Shown here: positions 15,037 to 32,243 of the stretch, one piece after another
Numbering within the stretch: the first letter of the stretch is position 1
Layout: each line of letters begins with the position of its first letter
Assembly (NCBI GenBank): GCA_003697045.1
Contig: RFGK01000187.1
Coordinates: 1 to 36,987 of the forward strand
From: Planctomycetota bacterium
Lineage (GTDB): Bacteria > Planctomycetota > Phycisphaerae > Phycisphaerales > UBA1924
DNA length: 36,987 bases
Reading direction: 5' to 3'
Program-made: the position numbers and the translations under genes
Notes under the pieces: generated by a model
The model's input: the letters and a program-made list of their open reading frames with translations, nothing else
What the model was told of the DNA's origin: nothing
The model's database searches: none

Positions 15037-15234
15037 GGCTCGGACTCCTTCGGATGGTAGACGAACCAACCCCGGAACCGGACTGGCCGGCATACGGAAG
15101 ATGGGCATAGCCGGAGTGGATGCGCGGCCTTGTGCAGCCCTGCGTCCTACAGTCTCCGACGAGCCGCACCTACGAAGCGGGTGGTTTGTGCCTGCGCATA
15201 CCTGCAGGACACCGAACAGGGGACGACACGACCA

Positions 15235-16953
15235 ATGGCACGATCGCGGAAGAAACTCGGGGACATCCTCGTCGGATGGGGTGTTCTAAGCAAAGAGGAC
15301 CTGGCAAGCGCGATCAAGGCTGCAAAGGCGACTGGACGCAGGCTCGGCGAAACCCTCGTCGAAGGCGGGTTCTGCTCTGAGGAACACGTCGCAAAGGCGC
15401 TTGCGGACCAGTTTGGCATGCAGTACGTCGATCTTTCAGCAAGCGAAGTCGCCAGTCAGATCGACATGAAGGCAATCGATGAGTCGCTGGTGAAGCGATA
15501 CCACGTCCTGCCGATGGGGAAAGCCTCGGGCAAGCTTCAACTCATCATCCACGATCCGCTTGATCTCGATCTGCTCGAAAACCTCCGCTTCAGGCTCAAC
15601 TCGCAGATCGAGCCGCGGATCGCCAGCAAGACCCAGATCAAGGCATTTATTGAGGGAAGACGCCCGGAACGCCAGGTGGCACCGGACGAATCACTCGTGA
15701 CTGAATCGATCGACCGAACCATCGACCGCTCGGTGGATCGGTCCATGGACAAGTCCATCGATGTCACTTCCGAAGACGCCCCGATTGTGCGTCTGTGCAA
15801 CCGGATTCTCTCTGAAGCGGTACGAATGCGCGCCTCAGATATTCACATCGAACCCATGGGCGATCGGGTTCGCCTGCGTTATCGCATCGATGGCGTGTGC
15901 ATGGAACGCGACAACCTTCCCAAGCGCATGCAAAACGCCCTGCTCAGTCGCGTCAAGCTCATGGCCGGGATGAACATCGCTGAAAAGAGAGTCCCGCAGG
16001 ACGGCCGCATCAAGATCCCCGTCGACGATACGCTCATCGATTACCGCGTCTCGGCGTGCCCTGCTTACCACGGCGAGAGCGTCGTGCTTCGTATTCTCCG
16101 TCCCGAGTCCGTGCGCATCGGATTGGCAAACCTTGGGTTTGAGCCGGACAATCTCGAGGTTTTCAACCGCATCATCCGGCGCCCGAACGGCATCTTCCTC
16201 GTCACCGGCCCGACCGGCTCAGGCAAGACCACCACGCTCTATTCGGCCCTTGACGTGCTCAACCGTCCCGACCGCAAGATCATCACCGCCGAAGATCCAG
16301 TCGAATACAACTTCGAAGGCATCAACCAGTGCCAGGTGCGGGAAAGCATCGGGCTGACATTCCAGGCGATCCTCCGATCCATGCTCCGCCAGGCGCCAAA
16401 CATCATTCTCGTTGGTGAGATTCGCGACCGCGAAGTGGGGGAGATTGCCATTCAGGCTGCCCTGACCGGGCACCTCGTCTTCAGCACGCTGCACACCAAC
16501 GACGCGCCCAGCGCCATCACCCGCCTGATCGATATGGGCATCAAGCCCTTCCTCGTGGCAAGTTCGATCCAGGCGATCATGGCCCAACGACTTGTCCGCG
16601 TCCTGTACGATGGCTCAAAACAGCTCGCAGAGAAGGAAGACCTCGATCCGAAGTACCTCCAGCTCATCGGGCTGAGCATGGAAGAGGCGCTTGGCAGAGT
16701 CTACAAGCCGGTTCCCTGCCCCGAGGCGGAGACTGGGTACAAGGGACGTCAGGGCATTTTTGAGCTGTTGCAGATGAACGCGGAGCTGCGCGATTTGGCA
16801 TTCAAGCTGGCGACAGTGAGCGAGCTTCGCCAGGCGGCACTCAACGCCGGCATGCGCCCGCTTGTCGCAGACGGGCGCATCAAGGTGCTCAACGGCGTGA
16901 CGACGCCCGCAGAAGTCGCGCGCGTCAGCCAGGTGGATGAATCAGGGACGTGA
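15235..16953 (+). CDS. GspE/PilB-family type II secretion / type IV pilus assembly ATPase (copy 1)
   Basis: N-terminal T2SSE_N-like 'LGDILVGWGVLSKEDLASAIKAAKATGRRLGETLVEGG', 'ASDIHIEPMGDRVRLRYRIDG', Walker A 'LVTGPTGSGKTTTLYSAL', Asp box 'ITAEDPVEYNFEGINQCQV', Walker B 'NIILVGEIRDREVGEIAIQAALTGHLVFSTLHTNDAPSAITRLIDMG'. Start at ATG 15235. Confidence 0.95.
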   Translation: MARSRKKLGDILVGWGVLSKEDLASAIKAAKATGRRLGETLVEGGFCSEEHVAKALADQFGMQYVDLSASEVASQIDMKAIDESLVKRYHVLPMGKASGKLQLIIHDPLDLDLLENLRFRLNSQIEPRIASKTQIKAFIEGRRPERQVAPDESLVTESIDRTIDRSVDRSMDKSIDVTSEDAPIVRLCNRILSEAVRMRASDIHIEPMGDRVRLRYRIDGVCMERDNLPKRMQNALLSRVKLMAGMNIAEKRVPQDGRIKIPVDDTLIDYRVSACPAYHGESVVLRILRPESVRIGLANLGFEPDNLEVFNRIIRRPNGIFLVTGPTGSGKTTTLYSALDVLNRPDRKIITAEDPVEYNFEGINQCQVRESIGLTFQAILRSMLRQAPNIILVGEIRDREVGEIAIQAALTGHLVFSTLHTNDAPSAITRLIDMGIKPFLVASSIQAIMAQRLVRVLYDGSKQLAEKEDLDPKYLQLIGLSMEEALGRVYKPVPCPEAETGYKGRQGIFELLQMNAELRDLAFKLATVSELRQAALNAGMRPLVADGRIKVLNGVTTPAEVARVSQVDESGT

Positions 16954-16996
16954 ATAAGGCAGGCGCAAAGCGTCTGAATGGGTTCAGGAGCAGATC

Positions 16997-18121
16997 ATGT
17001 CAACCATGCAAATCGACCGCCTGCTGGATACGGTGGTCAAGACCGGCGCGAGCGATCTTCACCTTACTGTCGGAAGGCCGCCCACCATTCGACTGCACGG
17101 CGGGCTGCGCAATCTTCAAACCAAGACCATCGACTCGGACGACATGGTTGGGCTCATGAAGTCCATCACCCCCGAGCGGAATCAGCAGGAGCTGCAGGAA
17201 GAAGGAGGCACCGACTTCGGGTTTGCCTACGGCGATGCCGCCCGCTTTCGCGTGTCGGTCTTTCGCCAGCGCGGGGATATTGCCATCGTTCTTCGCCAGA
17301 TTCCCAACCAGCTCCTCTCGTTTGAACAAATCGGCCTGCCGGATATGTGCAAGGATCTGATCCGTCGCCCCCGAGGTCTTTTCCTCGTGACCGGTCCGAC
17401 CGGTTCCGGCAAGACGACTTCGCTTGCGACGATGATCGACTACATCAACACCTACATGGACCGTCACATCGTCACCATGGAAGATCCGATCGAGTATTAC
17501 CACTATCACAAGAAGTCGATCGTCAATCAGCGCGAAGTCGGCAACGATGTTCCGAGCTTTGCCGAGGCGCTGCGTCGGGCGCTGCGCCAGGACCCCGATG
17601 TCATTCTCGTCGGCGAGATGCGTGACCTGGAGACGATCGAAGCCGCGGTGCGGGCTGCGGAAACCGGCCACCTCGTGTTTGGGACTTTGCATACCACCGG
17701 GGCTGCCAAGACCATCGACCGCCTTGTGGATGCGTTCCCGGTGGATCAGCAGAACCAGATCCGGGTGCAGCTGTCCACGGCTCTGATCTGCATCCTCAGC
17801 CAGGTACTCATGAAGCGGCAGGATATCCCCGGGCGCGTTGCTGCCTACGAGTTCCTTGTGGTGACGCCGGCCATTGCCAACCTGATTCGCGACAACAAGA
17901 GCTTCCGCATCGATTCGATGATCCAGACCGGCAAGAAGTACGGGATGCAGCTACTGGATGACCACCTGTGGTCACTGTACCGCCGGGGCTGGATCTCCGC
18001 AGAAGAGATGATTGACAAGTGCAAGAATCAAGCTGACCTTACGAACAAGGTCCATGCTGCGGGCGGGACAATCGGTCGAGTGGAGCTTGACGATGTGATC
18101 GAGCACGGAACTGAGGAGTGA
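16997..18121 (+). CDS. pilT: Type IV pilus twitching motility / retraction ATPase PilT
   Basis: 'DTVVKTGASDLHLTVGRPPTIRLHGGL', Walker A 'LVTGPTGSGKTTSLATMIDYIN', 'VILVGEMRDLETIEAAVRAAETGHLVFGTLHTTGAAKTIDRLVDAFPVDQQNQIRVQLS', PilT C-terminal box 'AIANLIRD' (canonical AIRNLIRE). RBS-like AGGAGC upstream of ATG 16997. Confidence 0.95.
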   Translation: MSTMQIDRLLDTVVKTGASDLHLTVGRPPTIRLHGGLRNLQTKTIDSDDMVGLMKSITPERNQQELQEEGGTDFGFAYGDAARFRVSVFRQRGDIAIVLRQIPNQLLSFEQIGLPDMCKDLIRRPRGLFLVTGPTGSGKTTSLATMIDYINTYMDRHIVTMEDPIEYYHYHKKSIVNQREVGNDVPSFAEALRRALRQDPDVILVGEMRDLETIEAAVRAAETGHLVFGTLHTTGAAKTIDRLVDAFPVDQQNQIRVQLSTALICILSQVLMKRQDIPGRVAAYEFLVVTPAIANLIRDNKSFRIDSMIQTGKKYGMQLLDDHLWSLYRRGWISAEEMIDKCKNQADLTNKVHAAGGTIGRVELDDVIEHGTEE

Positions 18122-18263
18122 GTTTCGGCTTGCAATGTTCGTATTCTGGGCGGCATGAATCGGATTCGGTGCCGCTCGAAAAGGCAATTTCAAAGTGTCT
18201 CAACGAAAAGCCTTGCCATGTTCGGGTGTTCGGCCTTGAACAGGGAAGGCATTTGTGTCGAAT

Positions 18264-18294
18264 GGGGAAGTAAGGCGCTCTGTGCCTTTTCCCC
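18264..18294 (+). promoter_or_regulatory. Strong RNA hairpin in the leader of the second PilB gene
   Basis: GGGGAAgtAAGGCGC-TCT-GTGCCTTTTCCCC: 13 paired positions (one G-T wobble) with a 2-nt bulge, about 10 nt upstream of the GGGAG Shine-Dalgarno of ATG 18316. Regulatory role is not shown. Confidence 0.45.
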
Positions 18295-18315
18295 GGGCGA
18301 TCCTGGGAGTCGATC

Positions 18316-20049
18316 ATGCCGATGCCAGACCCATCAGAACTGAAAGGACGCAAGCTCGGGCGCGTGCTCACCAAAATGGGTGTCGTGACGCGCGAGCAGG
18401 TGCACGAAGCGCTGGGCATCCAGAAGACGCGTCGCATTCCGATCGGCCAGCTTCTGGTCGAGCTGGGGTATTGCACTCAGAAGGATGTGGATGCGGCGCT
18501 TGCCGGGCAGGCGGGCATGGCATATGTCGATCTCTCCGATCTCGAGTTATCAGACGAAGTGCGCGATTCGATCCCGGCGGAGAATGCGCGGGCCTATCAG
18601 GTCATCCCGCTTGAGTACAACCAGAAGGCTCGCAAGATCAAGATCGCGATGAAGAGTCCGGACAATTTCCGGGCGGTGGACGATCTTCGTCTGCTGATGA
18701 GTTTCGACGTTGAGGCCGTCGTCGCGGACCCGGAACGCATCGACCAGTTGCTCGAAAAGTACTACGCCAAAGAGGAGTCGATGGTCGATGTGGTCTCGGC
18801 TCTGGCGTCGGATTCGAAGTTCCAGGGGCTTGCCGAGCGAGGCACGTCCATTGATCTCGACGCGGTTGCCGAGGCTGCGGGGGACAATCAGGTCATCAAG
18901 CTGCTGAATTTGGTGCTTTTGCAGGCCATTCGCGATCGGGCTTCGGATATTCACCTGGAGCCGTTCGAGAATGAGTTCAAGATCCGCTATCGCATCGATG
19001 GTGTGCTTTACGAGATGGTGCCTCCGCCCAAGCACCTCGGCCCGGCGATCACCAGTCGTGTGAAGGTCATGGCCAATCTTGACATTGCCGAGCGGCGTCT
19101 GCCGCAGGACGGTCGCATTGAGCTGACCGTGGGGGGCAATCCGATTGACCTGCGTGTGGCGGTGCTGCCGACGATTTATGGTGAGAGTGTCGTGCTTCGC
19201 GTGCTTGACCGATCCAACGTGCAGCTTCGGCTGGACAAGATCGGGTTCCGTGAGGATGACCTGGAGCGATTTCGTCATTTGATTCACAAGCCGAACGGGA
19301 TTGTGGTCGTGACCGGGCCGACGGGTTCGGGTAAGACGACGACGCTCTATGCGGCGCTGGCAGAGTTGAATGACGTCGAGACGAAGATTCTCACAGCAGA
19401 GGATCCGGTCGAGTATGACATTGACGGGCTGTGCCAGGTGCAGATGAATGAGGAAGTGGGGCTGACGTTTGCCCGTGCGCTGCGATCGTTTCTGCGCCAG
19501 GACCCGGACGTGATTCTCGTGGGGGAGATACGCGACCTTGAGACGGCGCAGATTGCGGTGCAGGCGTCGCTGACCGGCCACCTCGTGTTGAGCACGTTGC
19601 ACACGAATGACGCGCCCAGTTCGATCATTCGTCTTGTTGATCTCGGGATGGAGCCGTTTCTTCTCACCGCGACGATCGAGGGGATCGTTGCTCAGCGTCT
19701 GGTGCGCACGCTTGATCCGAAGGTCAAGGAGGAGTATCAGCCGACGGCCGAGGAGTTGCTCGAGCTTGCGCTCACGCCGGAGGATGTTCGTGGTCGCACG
19801 TTTTTCCGCCCGGGACATACCGATGAGATCGGTGGCGGCTTCAAGGGCCGCATGGCGTTGTTTGAGATCATGGAAATGGATGACCAGCTGCGTGAGCTCG
19901 TGATGAAAGAGGCCAGCACAGCGGTTCTGCGCGAGCAAGCCCGTCGTCGGGGGATGCGTTCGCTTCGTGAGAGCGGACTGATGGCGATCTACGAGGGGTT
20001 GACGACGATTGACGAAGTTGTCCGTGAGACGATCGCGGAGGATTCATAA
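18316..20049 (+). CDS. GspE/PilB-family type II secretion / type IV pilus assembly ATPase (copy 2)
   Basis: 'LGRVLTKMGVVTREQVHEALGIQ', 'RASDIHLEPFENEFKIRYRIDGVLYEM', Walker A 'VVTGPTGSGKTTTLYAAL', 'LTAEDPVEYDIDGLCQVQMNEEVGLTFARALRSFLRQDPDVILVGEIRDLETAQIAVQASLTGHLVLSTLHTNDAPSSIIRLVDLG'. Confidence 0.96.
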   Translation: MPMPDPSELKGRKLGRVLTKMGVVTREQVHEALGIQKTRRIPIGQLLVELGYCTQKDVDAALAGQAGMAYVDLSDLELSDEVRDSIPAENARAYQVIPLEYNQKARKIKIAMKSPDNFRAVDDLRLLMSFDVEAVVADPERIDQLLEKYYAKEESMVDVVSALASDSKFQGLAERGTSIDLDAVAEAAGDNQVIKLLNLVLLQAIRDRASDIHLEPFENEFKIRYRIDGVLYEMVPPPKHLGPAITSRVKVMANLDIAERRLPQDGRIELTVGGNPIDLRVAVLPTIYGESVVLRVLDRSNVQLRLDKIGFREDDLERFRHLIHKPNGIVVVTGPTGSGKTTTLYAALAELNDVETKILTAEDPVEYDIDGLCQVQMNEEVGLTFARALRSFLRQDPDVILVGEIRDLETAQIAVQASLTGHLVLSTLHTNDAPSSIIRLVDLGMEPFLLTATIEGIVAQRLVRTLDPKVKEEYQPTAEELLELALTPEDVRGRTFFRPGHTDEIGGGFKGRMALFEIMEMDDQLRELVMKEASTAVLREQARRRGMRSLRESGLMAIYEGLTTIDEVVRETIAEDS

Positions 20050-20127
20050 GAACGTCGCCGGTGTGCCATTGGGCGCTCGGCAAGGTGACACGAGGGGCCG
20101 ACACATCGGCCTGTGGAGAAACGCGAG

Positions 20128-21420
20128 ATGACGACGTTTGCCTACGAAGCGATTGACGCGGCGGGCAAGACTCAAAAAGGCACCATCGAGGCTGCCAACA
20201 GCGAGGAAGCGATCCGGGCCATCAAGAACAAGGGCTACTTCCCGCAATCGGTCAAGCCGGCAAAGGCGAAGAAGAGCGCCAAGCCAGCGGATGGGGCAGC
20301 GCCGGTCAAGAAGAAGAAGCGGAGGGGCGGAACCACGTTTGCCATCGGCGGCGTTTCGGCCAAGAAGCTCACGACGTTTACTCGTCAGCTTTCGACGCTT
20401 CAGGACGCCGGTTTGCCGCTCTTGCGTTCTCTGCAGATTCTCGAAAGTCAGCAGCGTCCGGGGCTGATGAAGAACATCCTCGCGGGCGTATGTGAAGAGG
20501 TAGAGGGCGGGACAAGCCTTTCGGAGAGCATGGCCAAGTTCCCCAAGGCATTTGACCGTTTGTATGTGAAGATGGTCAATGCCGGCGAAGTGGGCGGCGT
20601 GCTCGACATCATCCTCCAGCGCCTGGCCGAGTTCATGGAAAAGAGTCAGCGTCTGAAGAGGAAGATCAAGGGCGCGATGGTCTATCCGATCGTCGTCGTG
20701 TCGATCGCGCTGATCATTCTGACGGCGATCATGGTGTTCATCATTCCGAAGTTTGAAGCGATCTTCAATGACTTCGGCGTTGATCTCCCGTTGCTGACCG
20801 TGTGGCTGATCAACACCAGCCGCTGGTTCGGCGGGGCAAACCCGGGGCAGAAGATTCCGGGCGGTGCGATTGTGTTCATCGGGCTGGTTGTCGGGTTCAT
20901 TCTCATCAAGCTGTCGCGCAAGACCCCTCCGGGCAAGGCGCTGACCGACATCCTGATTCTCTGGCTTCCGATTTTCGGCGGCCTGGTGCGCAAGACGGTC
21001 ATCGCGCGATTCACGCGGACGCTCGGAACGCTGATTTCCGCGGGCGTGCCGATTCTCGAAGCGGTGACGATCACCAAGGAAACTTCCGGCAACTACGTGT
21101 TCGAAAAGGCCCTGGGCAAGGTGCACGATTCGATCCGCGAGGGTGAGACGTTTGCCGGGCCTTTGCGTGAGAGCAAGACGTGCGATCCGATCGTGGTGAA
21201 CATGATCGACGTGGGCGAGGAGACGGGCGAGCTGGACGTGATGCTCTTGAAGATCGCGGACAACTACGACGAAGAAGTCGACGTGGCGGTCGCTTCGCTC
21301 GTCTCGCTGCTTGAGCCTCTCATGGTCGTCCTGCTGGGCGGCATGGTCGGCACGATCGTGGTGGCGATGTTCCTTCCGCTGGTGGCGATGATCGAGTCGC
21401 TGCAGGGCGGCGGGCTCTAA
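20128..21420 (+). CDS. pilC: Type II secretion system F family / PilC inner-membrane platform protein
   Basis: 'TFAYEAIDAAGKTQKGTIEAANSEEAIRAIKNKGYFPQSV', 'KLTTFTRQLSTLQDAGLPLLRSLQILESQQ', two T2SSF-like repeats, C-terminal 'LLEPLMVVLLGGMVGTIVVAMFLPL'. ATG 20128 with GGAGAA RBS. Confidence 0.95.
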   Translation: MTTFAYEAIDAAGKTQKGTIEAANSEEAIRAIKNKGYFPQSVKPAKAKKSAKPADGAAPVKKKKRRGGTTFAIGGVSAKKLTTFTRQLSTLQDAGLPLLRSLQILESQQRPGLMKNILAGVCEEVEGGTSLSESMAKFPKAFDRLYVKMVNAGEVGGVLDIILQRLAEFMEKSQRLKRKIKGAMVYPIVVVSIALIILTAIMVFIIPKFEAIFNDFGVDLPLLTVWLINTSRWFGGANPGQKIPGGAIVFIGLVVGFILIKLSRKTPPGKALTDILILWLPIFGGLVRKTVIARFTRTLGTLISAGVPILEAVTITKETSGNYVFEKALGKVHDSIREGETFAGPLRESKTCDPIVVNMIDVGEETGELDVMLLKIADNYDEEVDVAVASLVSLLEPLMVVLLGGMVGTIVVAMFLPLVAMIESLQGGGL

Positions 21421-21468
21421 GTTCGGTGTGACGGAGTTGGCATGCCGGGCTTGGCAAGGAGTGATGCG

Positions 21469-22470
21469 ATGACATGTTCTGCGCAAGACCGCCGACGCGC
21501 TCGTGCGTTCACGCTGATGGAGTTGCTCGTCGCCATCGTGGTCATCGGCGTGCTGATTGCGCTGCTCATCACCGGGCTCAATGCAGCGGGCAAGTTTGCG
21601 AGAAAGGCAGCGGCGCAACAGACCATCAGTGCGCTCCAGGCCGCGACCAACCAGTTCAAGGACCAGTTCCGGTTCCTTCCTCCGCTTGTCCATGACGGCG
21701 CGGACATGGGGATCGCCGATCCGGTGGCCAGGGGCGCGTTCGATGACACCGGCCCGGTCTATCAGGATCGATACGGGCGGTCGCTTGTCAATGTCTACAA
21801 GCTGGGCGAGCAGGCGGGGCGTGATTTTCTCAAAGGCTCAACCCTGCCGCCGAACCAGCCCTACCAGGACGCACGCTACAGCAAGTTTTCGCTGCCGTTC
21901 TATCTGATGGGCGCGCTGGACGCATCGGTCGACGGCGTCGATGGGCTGGGCATGGTGACACCGGCAGCCGATGGTTCGTGGGTGGGCGTGGGTGATGCCA
22001 TGTCCACCGCGAACAAGCGGTTCGATCCATTGATGGAAGGCGGGCAGCGTTCGGCACGCATCCAGCCGAACTACGTCGATGCGGCGGAGATCGCCGAGCT
22101 CAACGGCTCAAACCCCACGGATCTGACCAACCGTTCTGCGCTGGTCGATGCGTCGGGACGGGCGTATCGCTACTACCGCTGGCTGCACGAAGACACGGTG
22201 CAGAACACGGCCGATTTGAATATTCCCGCGATTCTGCTTGATCCGATCACGGTCCAGGATGCGCAAGGCAACCCGACGATCGACGTGACCGACGGCAACG
22301 CCGAGCTGCGGTCGGCGACGTGGGCAATCGTGGGGGCAGGGCCCAACGGTCTGTTCGGGACGGAGGAGATCGGCTATCTGAGAAGCAAGATGTCGCTTCC
22401 GGGCAGCATGAGCGAGGTCAGAGTCAGACAGGAGGCTGCGAGCGACAACCTGGTGGGGGTGGGGCAATGA
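21469..22470 (+). CDS. Prepilin-type N-terminal cleavage/methylation domain protein (GspG-like pseudopilin, enlarged)
   Basis: Class III signal 'RRRARAFTLMELLVAIVVIGVLIALLITGL' with Glu at +5, C-terminal 'ATWAIVGAGPNGLFGTEEI'. RBS AAGGAG 8 nt upstream of ATG 21469. Confidence 0.85.
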   Translation: MTCSAQDRRRARAFTLMELLVAIVVIGVLIALLITGLNAAGKFARKAAAQQTISALQAATNQFKDQFRFLPPLVHDGADMGIADPVARGAFDDTGPVYQDRYGRSLVNVYKLGEQAGRDFLKGSTLPPNQPYQDARYSKFSLPFYLMGALDASVDGVDGLGMVTPAADGSWVGVGDAMSTANKRFDPLMEGGQRSARIQPNYVDAAEIAELNGSNPTDLTNRSALVDASGRAYRYYRWLHEDTVQNTADLNIPAILLDPITVQDAQGNPTIDVTDGNAELRSATWAIVGAGPNGLFGTEEIGYLRSKMSLPGSMSEVRVRQEAASDNLVGVGQ

Positions 22471-23723
22471 TGCGCACGCACCCATCCCGCGGCTTCACGA
22501 TCGTCGAGCTCTTCGTCGTCATTGCCGTCGCGTTGATTGCCATTGCGGTGGCGTTGCCGGCTTTTTCGGCGATGTCGTACTCTTCAAACCGTTCGCTGGC
22601 GGAGAACACGCTGAAGATTGCCGTGACGGTTGCGCGTGACGCTGCGATGCGATCGGCCCGGGGAGGAGACGGCGCCGCGGTGTTTTTGTACGACGCGCAG
22701 GCCGGGCGCATGCGCATCGTTGCGGCTGAGCAGGTCGGCACCATCACTGACATTGTCGACGGTGATACGCGGTTGACTATCGAACGCGACGTGTTCGCAC
22801 CTGTGGTTGTCGGGGAAACGACTGAGCTGCCTGCGTACTGGATGGTTCGCGGATATGCCCCGGCCCGGTTTACCAGCAGCACCGGCGGCGGGCCGGGCAT
22901 CGGCTTTCAGAACCGCGACGACTGGTACGATTCGGACCTGTACGCCGATCGGAACGCCTGGCAACGCGGGCACTGGATATTCCCCGAAGACGGGTTTTAC
23001 GACCTTCAGCGAGAGACCACGCCTCCGGGCAACAACTATCGCACGCCCAGGCAGGCGTTCATGGTTCGATTTGATGCCCGATCGGGCCAGCTTCGTCGGG
23101 ATGGGCGCGAAGCGCTTCTGATCGACCCGAGGCCGTCGTCACAAGGGCGCAGCTATTCGGACAATCGCACCGATCCACAGTCATGGAAGCGGGTCGATCT
23201 GGCGGATGACTTGTTCAGCTGGGCGCTGCGCGTCGTGACCGAAGCCGACCTTGACGGGGACGGCAATCCCTATCAACCGAGCGATACGCGAGAGCGTCAG
23301 AAGCTCGTCGGCAACCAGTCGCACGATACGGTGCTCCTGCGCGACGTGTCGCGTTTGGCGTTGTACGACGAGCGCGAGCTGGCCCGGGCTCTTGGCGCCA
23401 GAGAGCTCTCCCGTCGTCGTGGAACCGAGCAGACCGGCTCGCTCTACGCAACCTTTGAAGACGGGGGCGGGCGCATCTCGATCGACTTCGAGGGGCTGTT
23501 TGAAGACGGGTCGCCTTTTGACGACTCGCCCGCCGGGCTGCGACGCTTCCGCGAGAGCGTTGATCGCTGGATTGATGGCGACACAAACGTGAACAACGAC
23601 GGCACCATTGGCAACGGCATTCTCTTTGAAGACGGGCAGACACCACAGGAACGCGACGAGCCCAAGGCTGTTCGTTACCTCGTTGATCCTTACTCTGCCG
23701 AGTTGAGGGAGGTGACACGATGA
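22467..23723 (+). CDS. Prepilin-type protein (GspH-like minor pseudopilin, enlarged)
   Basis: 'MMRTHPSRGFTIVELFVVIAVALIAIAVALPAFSAM' class III signal; ATG overlaps previous stop (ATGA at 22467). Contains 'DLDGDGNPY'. Confidence 0.82.
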   Translation: MMRTHPSRGFTIVELFVVIAVALIAIAVALPAFSAMSYSSNRSLAENTLKIAVTVARDAAMRSARGGDGAAVFLYDAQAGRMRIVAAEQVGTITDIVDGDTRLTIERDVFAPVVVGETTELPAYWMVRGYAPARFTSSTGGGPGIGFQNRDDWYDSDLYADRNAWQRGHWIFPEDGFYDLQRETTPPGNNYRTPRQAFMVRFDARSGQLRRDGREALLIDPRPSSQGRSYSDNRTDPQSWKRVDLADDLFSWALRVVTEADLDGDGNPYQPSDTRERQKLVGNQSHDTVLLRDVSRLALYDERELARALGARELSRRRGTEQTGSLYATFEDGGGRISIDFEGLFEDGSPFDDSPAGLRRFRESVDRWIDGDTNVNNDGTIGNGILFEDGQTPQERDEPKAVRYLVDPYSAELREVTR

Positions 23724-24817
23724 ATGCTCCGTTGTCCAGCCTTGCGTCGCGTGCAGCACGGGCGTTTTCGCTTATCGAGGTGCTCATTGCGGTGCTTGTG
23801 CTCTCGCTCGGTTTGCTGGGTCTGGCGGCCGTCTTCCCCGTGGTGATTGCCCAACAGCGGGATGCCGTCGATCGCACACGCGGTGCCGTGGTTGCCGAGA
23901 CGGTTCAAAAGTTGCTTGAAAGTTCGGAAAACCTCGTGTCGTTCCGTGGGCTTCGGCGCGACTTCTGGTTCTCCGCAGCGGATGAGCTGGAAGAGGGCTC
24001 CGGCTACGACTTGGATGCGGAGAACATGAGCTTCTTGTGGGAGCCGACGTGGATGTGGGGGCCTCCAAGCCACTGGGCCGCCGACCCGCTTTCGGCGTAC
24101 CTCGATGTTGGTTCCATTCTGGTGGGATTCGGCAAGACGCTCAATCTTAATGGCGGCAGTGAAGACCCAGACCCGGAGCTTCAGTACGAGTTGCCGGTGA
24201 CTGCAAGGCTGTTCCCTCAGCCGTATACCGGAGAACAGCCGCAATACGTCTGGGACATTGTGCCGCGGCGTGTGCGCATCGGCAGCGATACCACGGGGCT
24301 TGAACTTGCGGTGTTCATCCGTCGCATCGACCCGGGCATTCGCGTGCCTCGCGGGAACACGCTGTCGGACGTGCTCACGGGACATCGCGTTGCGGCCAGC
24401 GAGGTCCGTCTGCCCGTGGGCATGGACCCGCTCACGCAGCTTCCGACTGGCAATGGCGCCGACATCGTGCCGGGGGGCACGGCGTATTCGGTGCCCTTGA
24501 CGTTGCCTGTGGTCGTGCGATCTGGAGCACTCAACATCATCGAGCTGGATTCGAGCAACCAGACCGAGCGCGATGTATGGTCGCGATCGGTTGCGGCTCC
24601 GGGTCAGATTCTGGTCGACAATCTGGGGCACGTGCTCAACGTGGTGCGAGTGCCCGAGTCGGACGATGGAGTGTTTCGTCTGGAAGTCGATCACACATAC
24701 GCGCGGTCCGAAGCCGACTACACGCCGGGCGTCGATCCGCGTGGCGTCAAGGTCGAGCAGATTCTCTTTACGCTGCAAAAGCCGGTGCGGGTGTTTACGT
24801 ACCGGGCCGATTGGTAA
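23720..24817 (+). CDS. Prepilin-type protein (GspI/PilV-like minor pseudopilin, enlarged)
   Basis: 'AARAFSLIEVLIAVLVLSLGLLGLAAVFPVVIAQQRDAVDRTRGAVVAE' is GspI/PilV-like; ATGA overlap with previous stop at 23720. Confidence 0.85.
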   Translation: MNAPLSSLASRAARAFSLIEVLIAVLVLSLGLLGLAAVFPVVIAQQRDAVDRTRGAVVAETVQKLLESSENLVSFRGLRRDFWFSAADELEEGSGYDLDAENMSFLWEPTWMWGPPSHWAADPLSAYLDVGSILVGFGKTLNLNGGSEDPDPELQYELPVTARLFPQPYTGEQPQYVWDIVPRRVRIGSDTTGLELAVFIRRIDPGIRVPRGNTLSDVLTGHRVAASEVRLPVGMDPLTQLPTGNGADIVPGGTAYSVPLTLPVVVRSGALNIIELDSSNQTERDVWSRSVAAPGQILVDNLGHVLNVVRVPESDDGVFRLEVDHTYARSEADYTPGVDPRGVKVEQILFTLQKPVRVFTYRADW

Positions 24818-24834: not shown

Positions 24835-26601
24835 ATGATGCAGTCACCCAGGACACATTCGGCCGGGTTTACGCTGATGGAGACGCTGATCGTCGTCGGT
24901 CTGGTGGCGTTGCTGGCACTCGGCATCGCCGGCGTGTTCGACACCGTGGGCGACACGATCGACCGCGGCAAGCGTGTCAGCGAGCTCAACCGCACCGCAG
25001 CGCAGATCGAGCGCATCATGCGCCGCGATTTTGAGCAGATGACGCGCGAAGCGCCGCTCATCATTCGCAATGAGTACGCCAACGAGGGTCAGGATGTTTC
25101 GCTCTTTGATCCGGCGAGATTCGAAGGCGAGCCGAACGAGCGCCCACGGCGCATTGATGAGATTGTCTTCTTTGCCCACTCCGAGCACGGGGAGTTTCAA
25201 ACGGCGCGGCGTGCCATGCACCCCGACCTGATTGCAACTTCTGATTCGGCCCGGATCTACTACGGGCACGGGCGCCGACAGATCCGCCCCCTCTATCAGG
25301 TTGCCAATGCCACGGCTCGCAACGATCCGTACTACCACCCCCGTCTTGAAGACCCCAACTATGACCCCGATTCGGCGTTCGGCGTTCCGTCCAGTCAGCC
25401 CGGACTGACCAATCCCAATCAATACGCCTCCGACTGGGGACTGCTTCGACATGTCCTGCTGCTCAGCTCACCCAACAAGGCGGAGACCACGATCCCGCAG
25501 GCGATGATTGACATCGTGGGCAACAGAGCCTTGCTCGAAGACAATCGCGTGCAGGTGGCCATGCAGCCGGCGGTCCAAAGCGCGTTTCGGAAGATTTCGC
25601 GCTACGTGCCGCGCGTGCCGGGCATGTTCGGCCAGCCGACCGGATATCGGCTCGATTCGCGGCAGACTCCGCCGTGGCTCAGCTCCGGGCTGGTCGATAT
25701 CGCGGTGACTGATTTCGGCGAGATTCGATCCATCGTGCACCACATGACCATTGACCCGGCTGATTTTCAGCCCCGCAACGGCCCTCCGTTTGAGTCATTC
25801 TTCGACCCGTTGGTTGTTGCAGATCGCCGAAGGATGCAGCTGTGGATGCTCGAACTGCTGCCCGGCAACGCGAGGGAGGAAATTCCGGGCAACGCGCTTC
25901 GGCGCACACGCATGCGATTTGAGTATGAGCCGCCGCTGCTGGCGATCATGGACCAGGACCTGGCCTCGGGCAGCGCCGAGTTTCGTGAGCTTGAGCGGGC
26001 GTATCGCCAGATCGACCAGGAGATGTTGACCAGCTCGGTGTTTGTCCCGGCGTGCACGGAGTTCATCGTGGAATGGTCATACGGACTGATTGACGATGTG
26101 CCCGGTTCGCCGACGTTTGGACAGCTCGTCTGGTACGGCCTGCCGCGCTACGAAGACATCAATGGCAACGGGCAGTATGACGTCGGCACCGACGTGATCG
26201 TTGCCCAGCCGTTCACGGGCGTTCCCGCAGAGGATGTGTTGCCGAGGCTGACCGGGCGCCCGGCATCGGAGTACGCCGGCAATTTCTATCCAACGCGAGA
26301 CTTGATCAACATGGGTTTGCCGCCGGCACCTTTGCAACCCGACGGCCAGACAGAAGTGTCGCTTTTCGGGTACTTCGATCCGGGTCCTTTGACACCAAAC
26401 GGCGACCCCGATGATTCGAGCTGGCAAAACGACCCGTTTACGACCGATCCGCCTGTTGACAACCCGGCCGACGATCGACCGTGGCTGTGGCCGACCATGA
26501 TCCGGATCACCATGACCATCGCGGACAGGACCGACCCCACGGTCGAGCAGACGTACCAGGTGGTCTTTGACGTACCCAATGGCGGACTGGACAACGAGTA
26601 A
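24835..26601 (+). CDS. Prepilin-type protein (GspJ-like minor pseudopilin, enlarged)
   Basis: 'MMQSPRTHSAGFTLMETLIVVGLVALLALGIAGVFDTVGDTIDRGKRVSELNRTAAQIERIMRRDFEQM' is GspJ-like; RBS GGAGG 7 nt upstream of ATG 24835; 588 aa. Confidence 0.83.
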   Translation: MMQSPRTHSAGFTLMETLIVVGLVALLALGIAGVFDTVGDTIDRGKRVSELNRTAAQIERIMRRDFEQMTREAPLIIRNEYANEGQDVSLFDPARFEGEPNERPRRIDEIVFFAHSEHGEFQTARRAMHPDLIATSDSARIYYGHGRRQIRPLYQVANATARNDPYYHPRLEDPNYDPDSAFGVPSSQPGLTNPNQYASDWGLLRHVLLLSSPNKAETTIPQAMIDIVGNRALLEDNRVQVAMQPAVQSAFRKISRYVPRVPGMFGQPTGYRLDSRQTPPWLSSGLVDIAVTDFGEIRSIVHHMTIDPADFQPRNGPPFESFFDPLVVADRRRMQLWMLELLPGNAREEIPGNALRRTRMRFEYEPPLLAIMDQDLASGSAEFRELERAYRQIDQEMLTSSVFVPACTEFIVEWSYGLIDDVPGSPTFGQLVWYGLPRYEDINGNGQYDVGTDVIVAQPFTGVPAEDVLPRLTGRPASEYAGNFYPTRDLINMGLPPAPLQPDGQTEVSLFGYFDPGPLTPNGDPDDSSWQNDPFTTDPPVDNPADDRPWLWPTMIRITMTIADRTDPTVEQTYQVVFDVPNGGLDNE

Positions 26602-26663: not shown

Positions 26664-29600
26664 GTGCTGCTGATGAACAGGACAGGCACCATGCTGCTCC
26701 ACGAGAATGAACAAGACAGAGGATGCAACGTTCGCCGACGCGGGTCCATCCTCGTGCTGGTGCTCGGCGTGCTCGCGTTGATGGCGGTGTTTGCCGCGGT
26801 GTACATGACCATCGGGCTGGGCGATCAGCGTGCTGCCAGCGCCGTCGAAGCGCGCCAGCAGCGTGATGAGCTTGCGCCACAAATCGGCGATTACATTGCG
26901 GACGTGATTGCGCGCGACCGGCTGGCGATCGAATGGCGGACCTCAGGGACCGACGGCGGCCTGGCCCAGCTCCCTTATCGCGAGACGACTGACTATTCCT
27001 ATACCGACTATGAGTTGCTGAGCATCCCCACCCTCGGCGACAACAGCGGACGACGCATTCCACCAAACCAGATCGACCTCTTTCGCTTCCGACCCGAGGG
27101 CAGCATCCCCGAGCCGTTCCTCGGCAATCCGCTCAACGATCAGCGAACCTCCAGCGACCCGTGGCTGGCGTCGACCGAGCCCACCTATCTCGGCTCGCCG
27201 GCCGAACGTGCGTTTCCGAATGATCCGACCAAGTGGTGGCTCGACAACCGCGACTGGCTCCAGATTTCCAACGTGGCGCCGGACGGGCTTTTTGTGAACC
27301 TCTACGCGCTGCGCAACAACTTCGACGCCGAGCGGGGCTATCGCAATGACAGCCAGATGAGCTACTGGTTGTCGCTGATCGAGGGCGCTCCGGGCGCGAG
27401 GCTCCAGGCCACGCTCGACCTTCCCTGGGGAGGAACGGCCGATCCAAACCGTCCATTCCACTGGACGATGTATCAGCGAAACATGTTTTTCCCAATCGGC
27501 CAGCCGTTTCTTTTCAATGATCGTTTTGGGAATGTTGCCGGCTGGGACAGCCCCGATTTTCCGCTCTACCAGTACGCGGACGCCGATGGCGACGGCTTTG
27601 CCGACAGCCGCTGGTTTGAACTGCGCGATTCGACGATTCCCGATGAAGAGCTCAATCTGCTTGCCAACTCCGGCGACTATCGGGTCTTTGCTGCGGTGCG
27701 CATCGTCGATCTGTCAGCCGCGGTCAATGTGAACACTGCAACGGACGGTCTGATCGCACCGACGGTCGAAGTTCCCGCGGGTTCGAGCCCGGCGGAGATC
27801 GATCTTCGCCGCCTGCTGACGCTGGAAGATGCTGCCCTGGACATGCGGGCGACGATCCCGGAGATTCTGGACGAGCCGTTGTCGTATCAGAGCATCCCGC
27901 GTCCGCGTCAGTGGGGCTCGGCCGAGGTGGAAGACGCTGCGTCTGACTATTCGCTGTACGAGTTTGCCCAGTCGGCCGGAACCGTGCCTGACGCCTCGCT
28001 CAAGATCGGCTGGTTCGGATACGACGCGCTCGTGCGGACGATGCAGGCCGATCTGCTCGATTCGCCTTACGACGTGCGTGGGTCGGCCGTGGCGCCGCCG
28101 GATCTGAGCGCCTACGACCCGACGATCGAGCTGTTGCCGGTCAGCCCGTTTGAGTATCTGTTCCTTTCCCGGGACCCGGGCAATCCCGGCGGACCGGGAG
28201 AGCACTTCGGCGTCCTGCGTGACATGGACCGTCGAGCGATGAATCGGCTCGAGCGATACCAGCGTGTGGGTCGTCTTGATCCGCTGGATCTGAGTCGCCG
28301 CGCGAGCGATCGTGAAGAACCTGAATCGCGATTTGGCGCAGAGATCTTCGGCATCGCCGATCTGAGTGAGCTGCTGACCTATCGCGGGCTCAACGATCCT
28401 GCGGCACTGTCTCGCCTTGAAGCGGCAGTTGATGGTCGACTCGATGACGCTGTGCCCGAGCCGTGGCTTACGACGCGTCGCTTTGGTCCGATGCGATCCA
28501 ATCGCGCCCTCAATTATGAGCGGTACGGGCATGACGATCGCGAGGCAGGGCAGGAGTTCCGTGATACCGATGCGCAGCCCGACGGGCTTATTGATGATGA
28601 TGCTCTGGCGCTGGCATTCATGTCTCCCCGCTCGCGGCTGACGACGATCAGTGGGGGGGCCGAGCTGAATGGGGCCCTTTCGCTTTCGGGCACTCAGTCA
28701 CGATTTGGTCTGCGGCTGCAAGCCCAGGAAAGCAAGACGCTGCTGAGATCGGCCGTCCAAAGCCAGCAGAGCCTCTTTGCGCTCTATCGCCGGGCGCTTG
28801 CCCCCCACGCCAGCATCGATCAGTCATGGCAACCGTTTGGTGCCGGGTACGACAGGTATCGAACACTGTTTTACGGCTATCAGGGTCCTGAGCTTGCCGT
28901 GCGTGCTGCGGCGCACCTGGCTTTGAACATGAAGGATCAATACGACTCGGATTCTGATCCATCCGTCGCGACGCTGATCAACACGTTGACGAACCCCAAT
29001 GTCAATGTTGATCCGCTTGTGCGTGCCGTCGCGAGCGACCCGATGCGCTATCCCGGCGGCGATACCGCCCAGCGGCTCGTGCTTCCGTTCACCCATGCAA
29101 ATACGAACCCGGGCAATGTCGAGTCGGAGGCGCTCAACATTTTCGGCATCGAACCCCAGCCGTTCATCGTGCAGGCGATGACTATTACGGTGCTTACTGA
29201 TGCTCCGCGCACCAACGTGCCTGCGGGCGAGCCCAACGGGGATGTCGACTGGCAATCAGGTTCGTGCGATCCGCCGACTCCGGGCCAGAGACAGCCGGCC
29301 CAGATTCCCATCACCATCGGCAGCAAGCTGACTTCGGGTGATTGGGCCAGCGGCGAATCGGTGTGGGACAAGAACGCAGACTTTGCGATGCAGGTCTTTG
29401 CCGTCAAGTTGCATAATCCGTTCAATGAGCCGATTACGCTGGGACGCAATGCCGCCGATCGGCGCAGCTTCGACTACTACATCGAGTACGGCGGACGGTA
29501 TTACAAGCTCGCGCAATACACCCCGCCGAATGATCTCGACGCGCCGCCCCGGTATGGACTCAGTCCCGTGACGATCCAGCCCGGCGCGACGCGCGTGTTC

Positions 29601-32243
29601 TTTGCCTTGTCGCAGGAAGATGAGCAGCGCATCGTCGATCGCTGGCAGAGGTATGTCAATGCCTACGGCGGCCCGGGGGTTCAACTCGAGTTTGACACCG
29701 TGCTCAACTGGCTGTATGCGCAGTTCCAGCTTGAAGAACTCGACGCCAACAACACCCCTGTATGGATGCGTCGGTTCGACCCGGAAACCGGGCTGCTGCT
29801 CAATGTGGCCGATGAGAACGACGACGACCCCGACGATGGCGGCGGATCGTTCGACACGTTCGACGACCTTTTCGAGTTTCCGCAGGTCCAGTTCCCGTCC
29901 AACGAGACCGCGCGTGAACCTGAATGGCAGACCGTGCGGCTCTGGAAGAAGGTCATCAATGACTCCGGACTCCAGCGAGAGACCGACTGGCGCGGAAGCC
30001 CCGACAACACAGACAACTGGATTCAGAACGATCTGCTTGTCGATCGCTTGCGCGAGCCCGACCCGGACCCCAATTATGTGACCCCGGACGGAATCACCTA
30101 TCCGGATCCGTCGCGTCGCGTGGCTCATCTTGACTCGCGCCCGGCGTTTGCGGGTGGGTATGACGTCGGCACTGCGGGCGGGCCTCGCGTTACGGGAACC
30201 AGATCCTGCGACCAGAACCTGGCACCGCTCGTCAATGGATTCCAGAACGACAACACCGGGTGGACGATCGCATCGCACTCGTTCATTCGTCGGCGGGGAT
30301 TCAACGACAACTCCTCTGCCAGGCAGTCCTCCGGGTCCGAATCGCTTCGTCGCGGGGTGCTGCCCCAATGGTGCATCGAGACGATTCAGAATCGCGCGAG
30401 CCCCGGCGGAGCCGACTATCAGGGCGAGGGCGAGCCACAGAACATCAAGGGCGGCGAACACCCCGGTTCCTCGCTGAGCGATGCAGATTTCGACTTCAAC
30501 GAGCCCTGGGCGTTCCGGCGATTCTCTCAGTTCATGGGCGAGAACGACCCGGTCGAGGACACGTTCAATCAGACGCCCAACGAGTGGAACGGGCCACAGT
30601 ATGCATTCAACATGCTGCGTGATGTCCTGTACGGCCCGTCACTGCCGCCCAACGGCGCACGCCCGCGCGATACCGAGTTCATCGTTCCCGAGCTTCACGT
30701 TCGCAACGACAAGCTCGAATACACACCCGCAGGCAGCGGCGATCCGATCGACATCTCGCGCCTGACCGACATCCTCGCGCCTTACGCGATCGGGCCGGAG
30801 TATGACCCGCGGGCAGCCTCTGACCTCGATAACGACCCCACGCTGCCGGGTCGGTGGCTGACGTTGAGCGAGGCGATGGGCCTGGCGCTTGCCTATGACC
30901 GCGCGCCCGACGGGGTCTACAGCCGATACATCTATTTCGATCCGCACAAGCGTCTGGTGACGGATCGCCCCGGCACACCTCCATCCGGAGATGCCGAGTA
31001 TGTCTTTGATCGCTGTCAGTTGTGGCTGACCAAGTTCGTTCCCTTTGTCAATCAGGATTCCGACCCCGACGGAGCGTTCAACCCGCAGTCGGACAGGGTG
31101 CTTGGCACCGGCGTGCCCCCGGCACTGGTGCTGCTGGATTCCATCCGCGCTGGCGATGATGATCTGACGGCCAATGAGGTTCTTCAGACGGCCCTTCCAG
31201 GCAAGATCAACATCAACACCGCTCCGCTCAGCGTGTTACGCACCATCGGAATGCTCAGTCCGAGCACGTCGTGGGATATCTTCGGCGTGCCCGAAAACTG
31301 GGCCTGGCGTGTTGCGTCGGAATACGGCGGGCTCGGGCCGAGCGGCTCGTTCGATCCTGCGCCCTACATCGATTGGGCCAAAACGAATCTCGGCCTTCCC
31401 GATCTCTCGTTTGTCGATGCTGCTTCCACGCTGATTGCCTATCGCGATCGACTCCGGTATATCCCGTTCCGCGTGGCCTCATTCCCGCCGTCTCTGCTGC
31501 CCAAGGCTGGTCTGATTGATTCGGGATTTGTGCCTGATGACGGCTCCGGGGCGCTCTTCCATGTCACAAACCCCGAGCTGGCACTGGTTGAGGACAATCG
31601 CATCAATGACGTCGGCCGAAGCATGCTCACGGGCATCATCGGCCTGCGTGAACGCCCGGGATTTGCGTCGCTTGGGGAAATATTCGCAGCGAGGATACGC
31701 CCGGATCTGGAAGACACTTTCGATGCGCGCACGCTTCCCTATCGCATCAATGAGGTCGAGACCTGCCAGGTCGACGCACTCTCGAGCGATCGATCCGACG
31801 GAGCAAACCCGCAGGAGCTCAAGGCCTACGAGCATACCGGCGGCGGCGCAAACTTCCGCATCAGGCTCGAGCCGGCTCCCTATACCGACTTCGATCCGTT
31901 TGAGGACACGAGCTTCCCGCAAAACAAGCAGTTTGTCGGCGATGAGCTGGGCAATGACTACGACGAACAGCTTGCCATTGCGTCTCAGGTTCTCAATCTT
32001 GTCACGACGCGGAGCGACTACTTTGCCGTCTGGTTCGTCGTTCAAGGCTACACCCGTGAAGACGTGAGCAATCTTGGTGAAAACGATCCGATGATCCCCA
32101 GCTTTGCCCGACGGTATCTGATGGTGGTCGACCGTACCCGGGTGGGGACCTGGGTTGACCGCAACGGCGACGGCATCGAGCAGGAGGAGTCGGAAATCAT
32201 TACGCAGCCTCGCATTGTGCTTTTCCGCGAGGTGCCGATGTAG
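26664..32243 (+). CDS. Giant GspK-like general secretion pathway protein (1859 aa)
   Basis: N-terminal 'RRRGSILVLVLGVLALMAVFAAVYMTIGLGDQRAAS' (GspK-type TM without Glu at +5); 'VDLSAAVNVNTATDG' and 'LPGKININTAPLSVLRTIGMLSP' match the two GspK NxNTA positions; an uninterrupted ORF of 5.58 kb. Confidence 0.82.
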   Translation: MLLMNRTGTMLLHENEQDRGCNVRRRGSILVLVLGVLALMAVFAAVYMTIGLGDQRAASAVEARQQRDELAPQIGDYIADVIARDRLAIEWRTSGTDGGLAQLPYRETTDYSYTDYELLSIPTLGDNSGRRIPPNQIDLFRFRPEGSIPEPFLGNPLNDQRTSSDPWLASTEPTYLGSPAERAFPNDPTKWWLDNRDWLQISNVAPDGLFVNLYALRNNFDAERGYRNDSQMSYWLSLIEGAPGARLQATLDLPWGGTADPNRPFHWTMYQRNMFFPIGQPFLFNDRFGNVAGWDSPDFPLYQYADADGDGFADSRWFELRDSTIPDEELNLLANSGDYRVFAAVRIVDLSAAVNVNTATDGLIAPTVEVPAGSSPAEIDLRRLLTLEDAALDMRATIPEILDEPLSYQSIPRPRQWGSAEVEDAASDYSLYEFAQSAGTVPDASLKIGWFGYDALVRTMQADLLDSPYDVRGSAVAPPDLSAYDPTIELLPVSPFEYLFLSRDPGNPGGPGEHFGVLRDMDRRAMNRLERYQRVGRLDPLDLSRRASDREEPESRFGAEIFGIADLSELLTYRGLNDPAALSRLEAAVDGRLDDAVPEPWLTTRRFGPMRSNRALNYERYGHDDREAGQEFRDTDAQPDGLIDDDALALAFMSPRSRLTTISGGAELNGALSLSGTQSRFGLRLQAQESKTLLRSAVQSQQSLFALYRRALAPHASIDQSWQPFGAGYDRYRTLFYGYQGPELAVRAAAHLALNMKDQYDSDSDPSVATLINTLTNPNVNVDPLVRAVASDPMRYPGGDTAQRLVLPFTHANTNPGNVESEALNIFGIEPQPFIVQAMTITVLTDAPRTNVPAGEPNGDVDWQSGSCDPPTPGQRQPAQIPITIGSKLTSGDWASGESVWDKNADFAMQVFAVKLHNPFNEPITLGRNAADRRSFDYYIEYGGRYYKLAQYTPPNDLDAPPRYGLSPVTIQPGATRVFFALSQEDEQRIVDRWQRYVNAYGGPGVQLEFDTVLNWLYAQFQLEELDANNTPVWMRRFDPETGLLLNVADENDDDPDDGGGSFDTFDDLFEFPQVQFPSNETAREPEWQTVRLWKKVINDSGLQRETDWRGSPDNTDNWIQNDLLVDRLREPDPDPNYVTPDGITYPDPSRRVAHLDSRPAFAGGYDVGTAGGPRVTGTRSCDQNLAPLVNGFQNDNTGWTIASHSFIRRRGFNDNSSARQSSGSESLRRGVLPQWCIETIQNRASPGGADYQGEGEPQNIKGGEHPGSSLSDADFDFNEPWAFRRFSQFMGENDPVEDTFNQTPNEWNGPQYAFNMLRDVLYGPSLPPNGARPRDTEFIVPELHVRNDKLEYTPAGSGDPIDISRLTDILAPYAIGPEYDPRAASDLDNDPTLPGRWLTLSEAMGLALAYDRAPDGVYSRYIYFDPHKRLVTDRPGTPPSGDAEYVFDRCQLWLTKFVPFVNQDSDPDGAFNPQSDRVLGTGVPPALVLLDSIRAGDDDLTANEVLQTALPGKININTAPLSVLRTIGMLSPSTSWDIFGVPENWAWRVASEYGGLGPSGSFDPAPYIDWAKTNLGLPDLSFVDAASTLIAYRDRLRYIPFRVASFPPSLLPKAGLIDSGFVPDDGSGALFHVTNPELALVEDNRINDVGRSMLTGIIGLRERPGFASLGEIFAARIRPDLEDTFDARTLPYRINEVETCQVDALSSDRSDGANPQELKAYEHTGGGANFRIRLEPAPYTDFDPFEDTSFPQNKQFVGDELGNDYDEQLAIASQVLNLVTTRSDYFAVWFVVQGYTREDVSNLGENDPMIPSFARRYLMVVDRTRVGTWVDRNGDGIEQEESEIITQPRIVLFREVPM

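Follow-up and report, generated by a model that had tools for sequence, protein, structure and literature searches.

A giant pilin, about six times the usual size, is encoded at the end of a planctomycete pilus operon in the window analysed here, a stretch of DNA of 36,987 nucleotides. We interpret it as a K-type pilin of a type IV filament with a probable location at the tip, and put the probability of this reading at about 0.7. The protein is probably a minor pilin of the GspK/PilK/PilX class, belonging to a PilT-bearing filament that is probably retractile. No literature on a giant pilin of Phycisphaerae was found.

The gene (26664..32243, forward strand, as are all features given below) is a single open frame of 5.58 kb with zero internal stops, encoding 1859 aa. 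Translation starts at the GTG at 26664 or at either of two in-frame ATGs, and the prepilin leader (26664..26744), ending in RRRG at the predicted cleavage site, is accordingly 27 residues long at most, or 24 or 18. The N-terminal pilin helix (26745..26921; mature S1 I2 L3 V4 L5) begins RRRG|SILVLVLGVLALMAVFAAV and carries Leu instead of Glu at position +5; hhalign aligns it with the GspK helix (P 1.4e-5). The motif NVNTA is located at residue 355 (27726-27740) and NINTA at residue 1516 (31209-31223), leaving a gap of 1161 codons. Frame, Glu+5-less helix, motif positions and gap had all been given in the initial annotation, and translation and motif search reproduced them exactly. Just ahead of motif 1 sits a near-invariant DxDGDGxxD loop (27579..27605), in which D282, G285, D286 and D290 (numbering from residue 25) are invariant; the loop is a candidate Ca2+ site. 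When the whole protein was compared with its own genome, the sole match was the protein itself.

A frame of this size in a draft genome of 292 contigs might be a chimera or a frameshift product of the assembly, an objection that the initial annotation had itself raised. This explanation can be discarded for all practical purposes, since many independent assemblies carry the same long frame and coding constraint extends through the insert: compared with the two nearest relatives, third codon positions hold most of the differences in every part of the gene. Conservation across independently assembled genomes also places the frame beyond chance.

The operon upstream of the giant encodes two PilB/GspE-like assembly ATPases (15130..16953 and 18316..20049), a PilT/PilU-family retraction ATPase between them (16997..18121) and a PilC/GspF platform protein (20113..21420), followed by four pilins. 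The first assembly ATPase scores 577.7 bits, which is below the PilB equivalog cut-off, whereas PilT reaches 451.5 bits against a cut-off of 319.1; the second assembly ATPase and the platform protein were assigned by profile matches. Both assembly ATPases (15130-20049), with PilT between them, have N-terminal MshE-type c-di-GMP-binding motifs. The pilins are GspG-like (pilin 1, 21442..22470), GspH-like (pilin 2, 22467..23723), PilV/GspI-like (pilin 3, 23720..24817) and GspJ-like (pilin 4, 24835..26601). All four of these upstream prepilins have Glu+5, in contrast to the giant. Their mature lengths of 320, 409, 350 and 577 aa are all oversized, thus the whole pilin set is enlarged and not K alone. 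In relatives the order assembly ATPase 1, PilT, assembly ATPase 2, platform protein, pilins 1 to 4 and giant is kept, with the giant as the terminal gene. The tricorn-like protease gene downstream is kept in three near relatives only.

The PilB and GspF matches, strong but below the equivalog cut-offs, do not separate a type IV pilus from a type II secretion system. Since the platform protein and the ATPases score about equally on models of both, and the companion pilins are GspG/H/J-like, the giant might serve a type II-like secretion system as K pseudopilin, the body of the giant recognising or pushing periplasmic substrates. We regard this as rather improbable, because a PilT above its cut-off lies within the operon in a conserved arrangement and because another pilin operon of the same genome, on contig C231, has a K candidate of its own, a 562-aa protein with weak K-type matches and a helix-hairpin-helix (HhH) match of ComEA type; the gene after it is PilM-like. 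Four secretin matches, PilM homologues on other contigs and other pilin operons were also found in this genome. In addition, a frame of 989 aa (L214:4818-7787), prepilin-like at its N-terminus, adjoins a short prepilin and represents another oversized pilin-like protein. It is the PilT in the operon that makes retraction of the filament probable; together with HIJ-like pilins it accompanies the giant as expected for a K/PilX subunit of type IVa pili.

No match to a prepilin peptidase was obtained in this draft genome, the lone exception among 41 genomes, of which the other 40 gave one, so that the missing match is likely due to draft incompleteness or divergence. Most of the PF01478 matches in relatives (G001-G052) are partial, and the frames containing them, about 370-650 aa long, exceed the 200-290 residues usual for prepilin peptidases.

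The profile search proposed in the initial annotation left the giant far below the curated GspK cut-offs (NF037980, 11.9 vs 130 bits; PF03934, 13.5 vs 24.2 bits). Sliding windows of a profile of the giant family, compared with shorter planctomycete GspK-like sequences, revealed similarity in four segments. Residues 25-87 of the giant correspond to GspK 10-72 (P 1.4e-5) and residues ~1495-1600 (31146..31463), a SAM2/helix-hairpin-helix-like module with the second NxNTA, to GspK 213-259 (P 2.8e-7 to 5e-8; 93% probability). Two matches are weak: residues 340-387 (27681..27824), the first NxNTA region, with GspK 102-146, colinear with the first NxN region there (P 0.014-0.016 in two overlapping windows), and residues ~1773-1830 with GspK 282-333 (P 0.055). 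The latter overlaps a C-terminal part (residues 1786-1857; 32019..32234), in which the model of the C-part predicts three strands, the putative, colinear counterparts of the last GspK strands. Half of these matches are weak when taken singly, and the likeness is argued from the colinearity of all four. Profile windows wholly within residues 475-1375 gave zero GspK similarity.

The assignment of the two NxNTA motifs to the SAM/HhH halves of GspK, as originally proposed, therefore stands for motif 2 (93% probability, P 5e-8), while for the colinear motif 1 (P ~0.015) a SAM1-type identity is weakly supported by sequence. The idea of one very large insertion into a GspK-type protein was correct insofar as the large body has no equivalent in GspK, but a single insertion is too simple, since the extra sequence occupies three intervals: about 220 residues separate the helix from motif 1, about 1050 separate motif 1 from motif 2, and about 150 separate the motif-2 module from the last strands.

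NxNTA alone is not diagnostic of GspK because ComEA-type helix-hairpin-helix proteins have the same motif. With the curated cut-offs missed as well, one could ask whether the likeness is superficial and the giant is a prepilin-like membrane anchor joined to an exoprotein of unrelated origin whose helix-hairpin-helix motifs are generic. This appears very unlikely in view of the four colinear GspK-like segments, the operon position, and the shorter GspK-like ORFs that the C-terminal profile of the giant also picks up in the phylum sample. The K-type identity is supported by the helix without Glu+5, the position at the end of a pilin operon of G-H-I-J-K-like order and the GspK-like motif-2 module and C-terminal strands, as the initial annotation had anticipated for the protein as a whole. 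In its mode of action the giant would resemble the GspK/PilX pilins, from which it probably descends, although it falls short of the curated scores of the family and lies outside its usual size.

With GspK/T2SSK (NF037980, PF03934) the giant thus shares, in colinear order, the Glu5-less helix, the motif-2 module and the C-terminal strands, as well as the last pilin position in the operon; it differs in its 1859 aa against the roughly 300-360 usual, its three extra intervals, its scores far below the cut-offs and the PilT in its operon. Compared with PilX/PilK of type IVa pili, it takes the K place in a FimU-PilV-PilW-PilX-like set beside PilB, PilT and PilC, and pilin 3 resembles PilV; unlike the combination of PilX/PilK with a PilC/PilY1 tip protein, its body is inside the pilin itself. 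Modular pilins likewise bear a large extra module, and GspK itself is one of them (Raynaud et al. 2021, PMC8179133), whereas the extra sequence of the giant lies inside the pilin and contains no known domain. The Verru_Chthon cassette protein A (TIGR02600) is also large with a prepilin-like N-terminus, and 2 of 31 members match weakly, but its match to ORFs of the phylum is limited to the N-terminal ~60-80 positions; above the cut-off there was no TIGR02600 match in any of 61 phylum genomes, nor in the giant's own genome.

Between the motif regions, the body (residues 388-1494; 27825..31145) was assigned to no known family by family, sequence and structure searches: no known domain was found in Pfam, NCBIfam or the sequences of solved structures, and a PDB sequence search with the whole giant or a profile of its C-part returned nothing. 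Stray EF-hand or calcium-motif matches in the body searches were single, in one member each. AlphaFold models of the giant, built as two overlapping parts, were fairly confident (pLDDT 82 and 77, pTM 0.72 and 0.85), and Foldseek with these parts found no solved structure at E <= 0.001, GspK and other pilins not being matched. The best PDB structure match of the N-part, below threshold, was lamin A/C with its lamin-tail Ig fold (E 0.09, prob 0.85-0.89). Judging from the strand pattern, a beta-sandwich that is possibly lamin-tail/Ig-like may be placed at residues ~907-982 (29382..29609). Going by the models, the body of about 1100 residues probably forms a single folded unit that includes an Ig-like sandwich.

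The initial annotation had described this one protein; the giant is no oddity but belongs to a lineage-wide family. Homologues are present in 51 of the 61 genomes searched, its own included, in open frames of mostly 1000-2700 aa (1060-1150 aa in L067-L069), and the C-terminal profile, run against 150 genomes sampled from the phylum, matched every one of the 16 Phycisphaerae listed. In genomes outside the class this profile matches only weakly, and most of the inspected matches correspond to the motif-2 module in shorter ORFs resembling GspK. A second collection comprises 73 loci, titled nearly all as Phycisphaerales/Planctomycetota MAGs. Three public MAGs titled Cyanobacteria, Leptolyngbya and Isosphaera (L083, L117, L149) carry the Phycisphaerae giant gene, and these titles are probably wrong. 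A pattern search in the homologues detected both NxNTA motifs in many and at least one in nearly all. Based on aligned motif positions, the motif spacing among 67 near relatives is 906-1473 residues, a range with alignment-defined tails since some sequences have eroded motifs or truncated ends; by pattern, the spacing in more distant members extends from ~640 (L068, L229) up to ~1780 (L064). Other Planctomycetota lineages (L219-L226, L230) have a different type of giant GspK-like ORF in other prepilin operons, with NxNTA motifs, where both are seen, ~90-400 residues apart near the N-terminus and then a C-terminal extension of >1000 residues.

Segments of the body are conserved to a similar degree as the helix, with mean pairwise identities of 46% (residues 736-775) and 35% (816-1000) against 43% for the helix. 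At the level of sequence, this points to a common function or architecture, and a shared structural module would fit better than a fast-evolving adhesin. It would also suit the giant being a type IV pilus minor pilin with no effector role, its body scaffolding the base or tip complex of this clade's filament, and the mature companion pilins, all four above the usual pilin size with 320-577 aa, would suit such a role. A body of >1000 residues would, however, be hard to place inside the filament shaft, and the reported location of K subunits is the tip (PMC10191384); we therefore consider the scaffold role possible but on balance unlikely.

For a K-type tip pilin, the following mechanism can be proposed. 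The prepilin peptidase would cut the giant at RRRG|S, and the mature protein, which has no Glu5, would be positioned together with the I- and J-like pilins at the extreme end of the filament, priming assembly as K does elsewhere. HIJK minor pilins form a tip complex capped by the subunit that does not have Glu5, and type IVa pili are capped by PilY1 (review, PMC10191384). The ~1100-residue body might then project from the tip as an effector that makes contact, adheres or recognises substrates, as PilC/PilY1 does in other diderm type IVa pili, and possibly takes PilY1's place. Taken alone, the role of the body as tip effector has, in our analysis, slightly less than an even chance, and surface exposure as well as an adhesin, receptor or recognition function, as suggested initially, are only inferred. 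The PF05567 beta-propeller of PilC/PilY1 was not found in the giant, in which no Pfam family was detected up to E 1. Searches for PilY1 in the order and phylum samples gave no match, but no control genome matched either, so that replacement of PilY1 by the giant is put forward as a hypothesis. Only tentatively, and as something that may well turn out otherwise, do we propose for the Phycisphaerae in general that the type IV pilus tip effector is built into the K pilin, its inter-motif body of ~640-1780 residues with an undescribed fold replacing PilY1 and forming the filament's main device for contact or recognition.

Since giants occupy the same operon place in nearly every sampled member of the class, the tips of Phycisphaerae pili probably carry an uncharacterised structure of very large size. 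If this is true, a whole bacterial class builds its pili around a pilin well above the most extreme multi-domain pilin of the modular-pilin survey, which has 860 residues (Raynaud et al. 2021, PMC8179133). The giant would offer a test of the tip role of the K subunit and of a pilin taking over the work of PilY1, and its unmatched body would be a promising place to look for a new fold.
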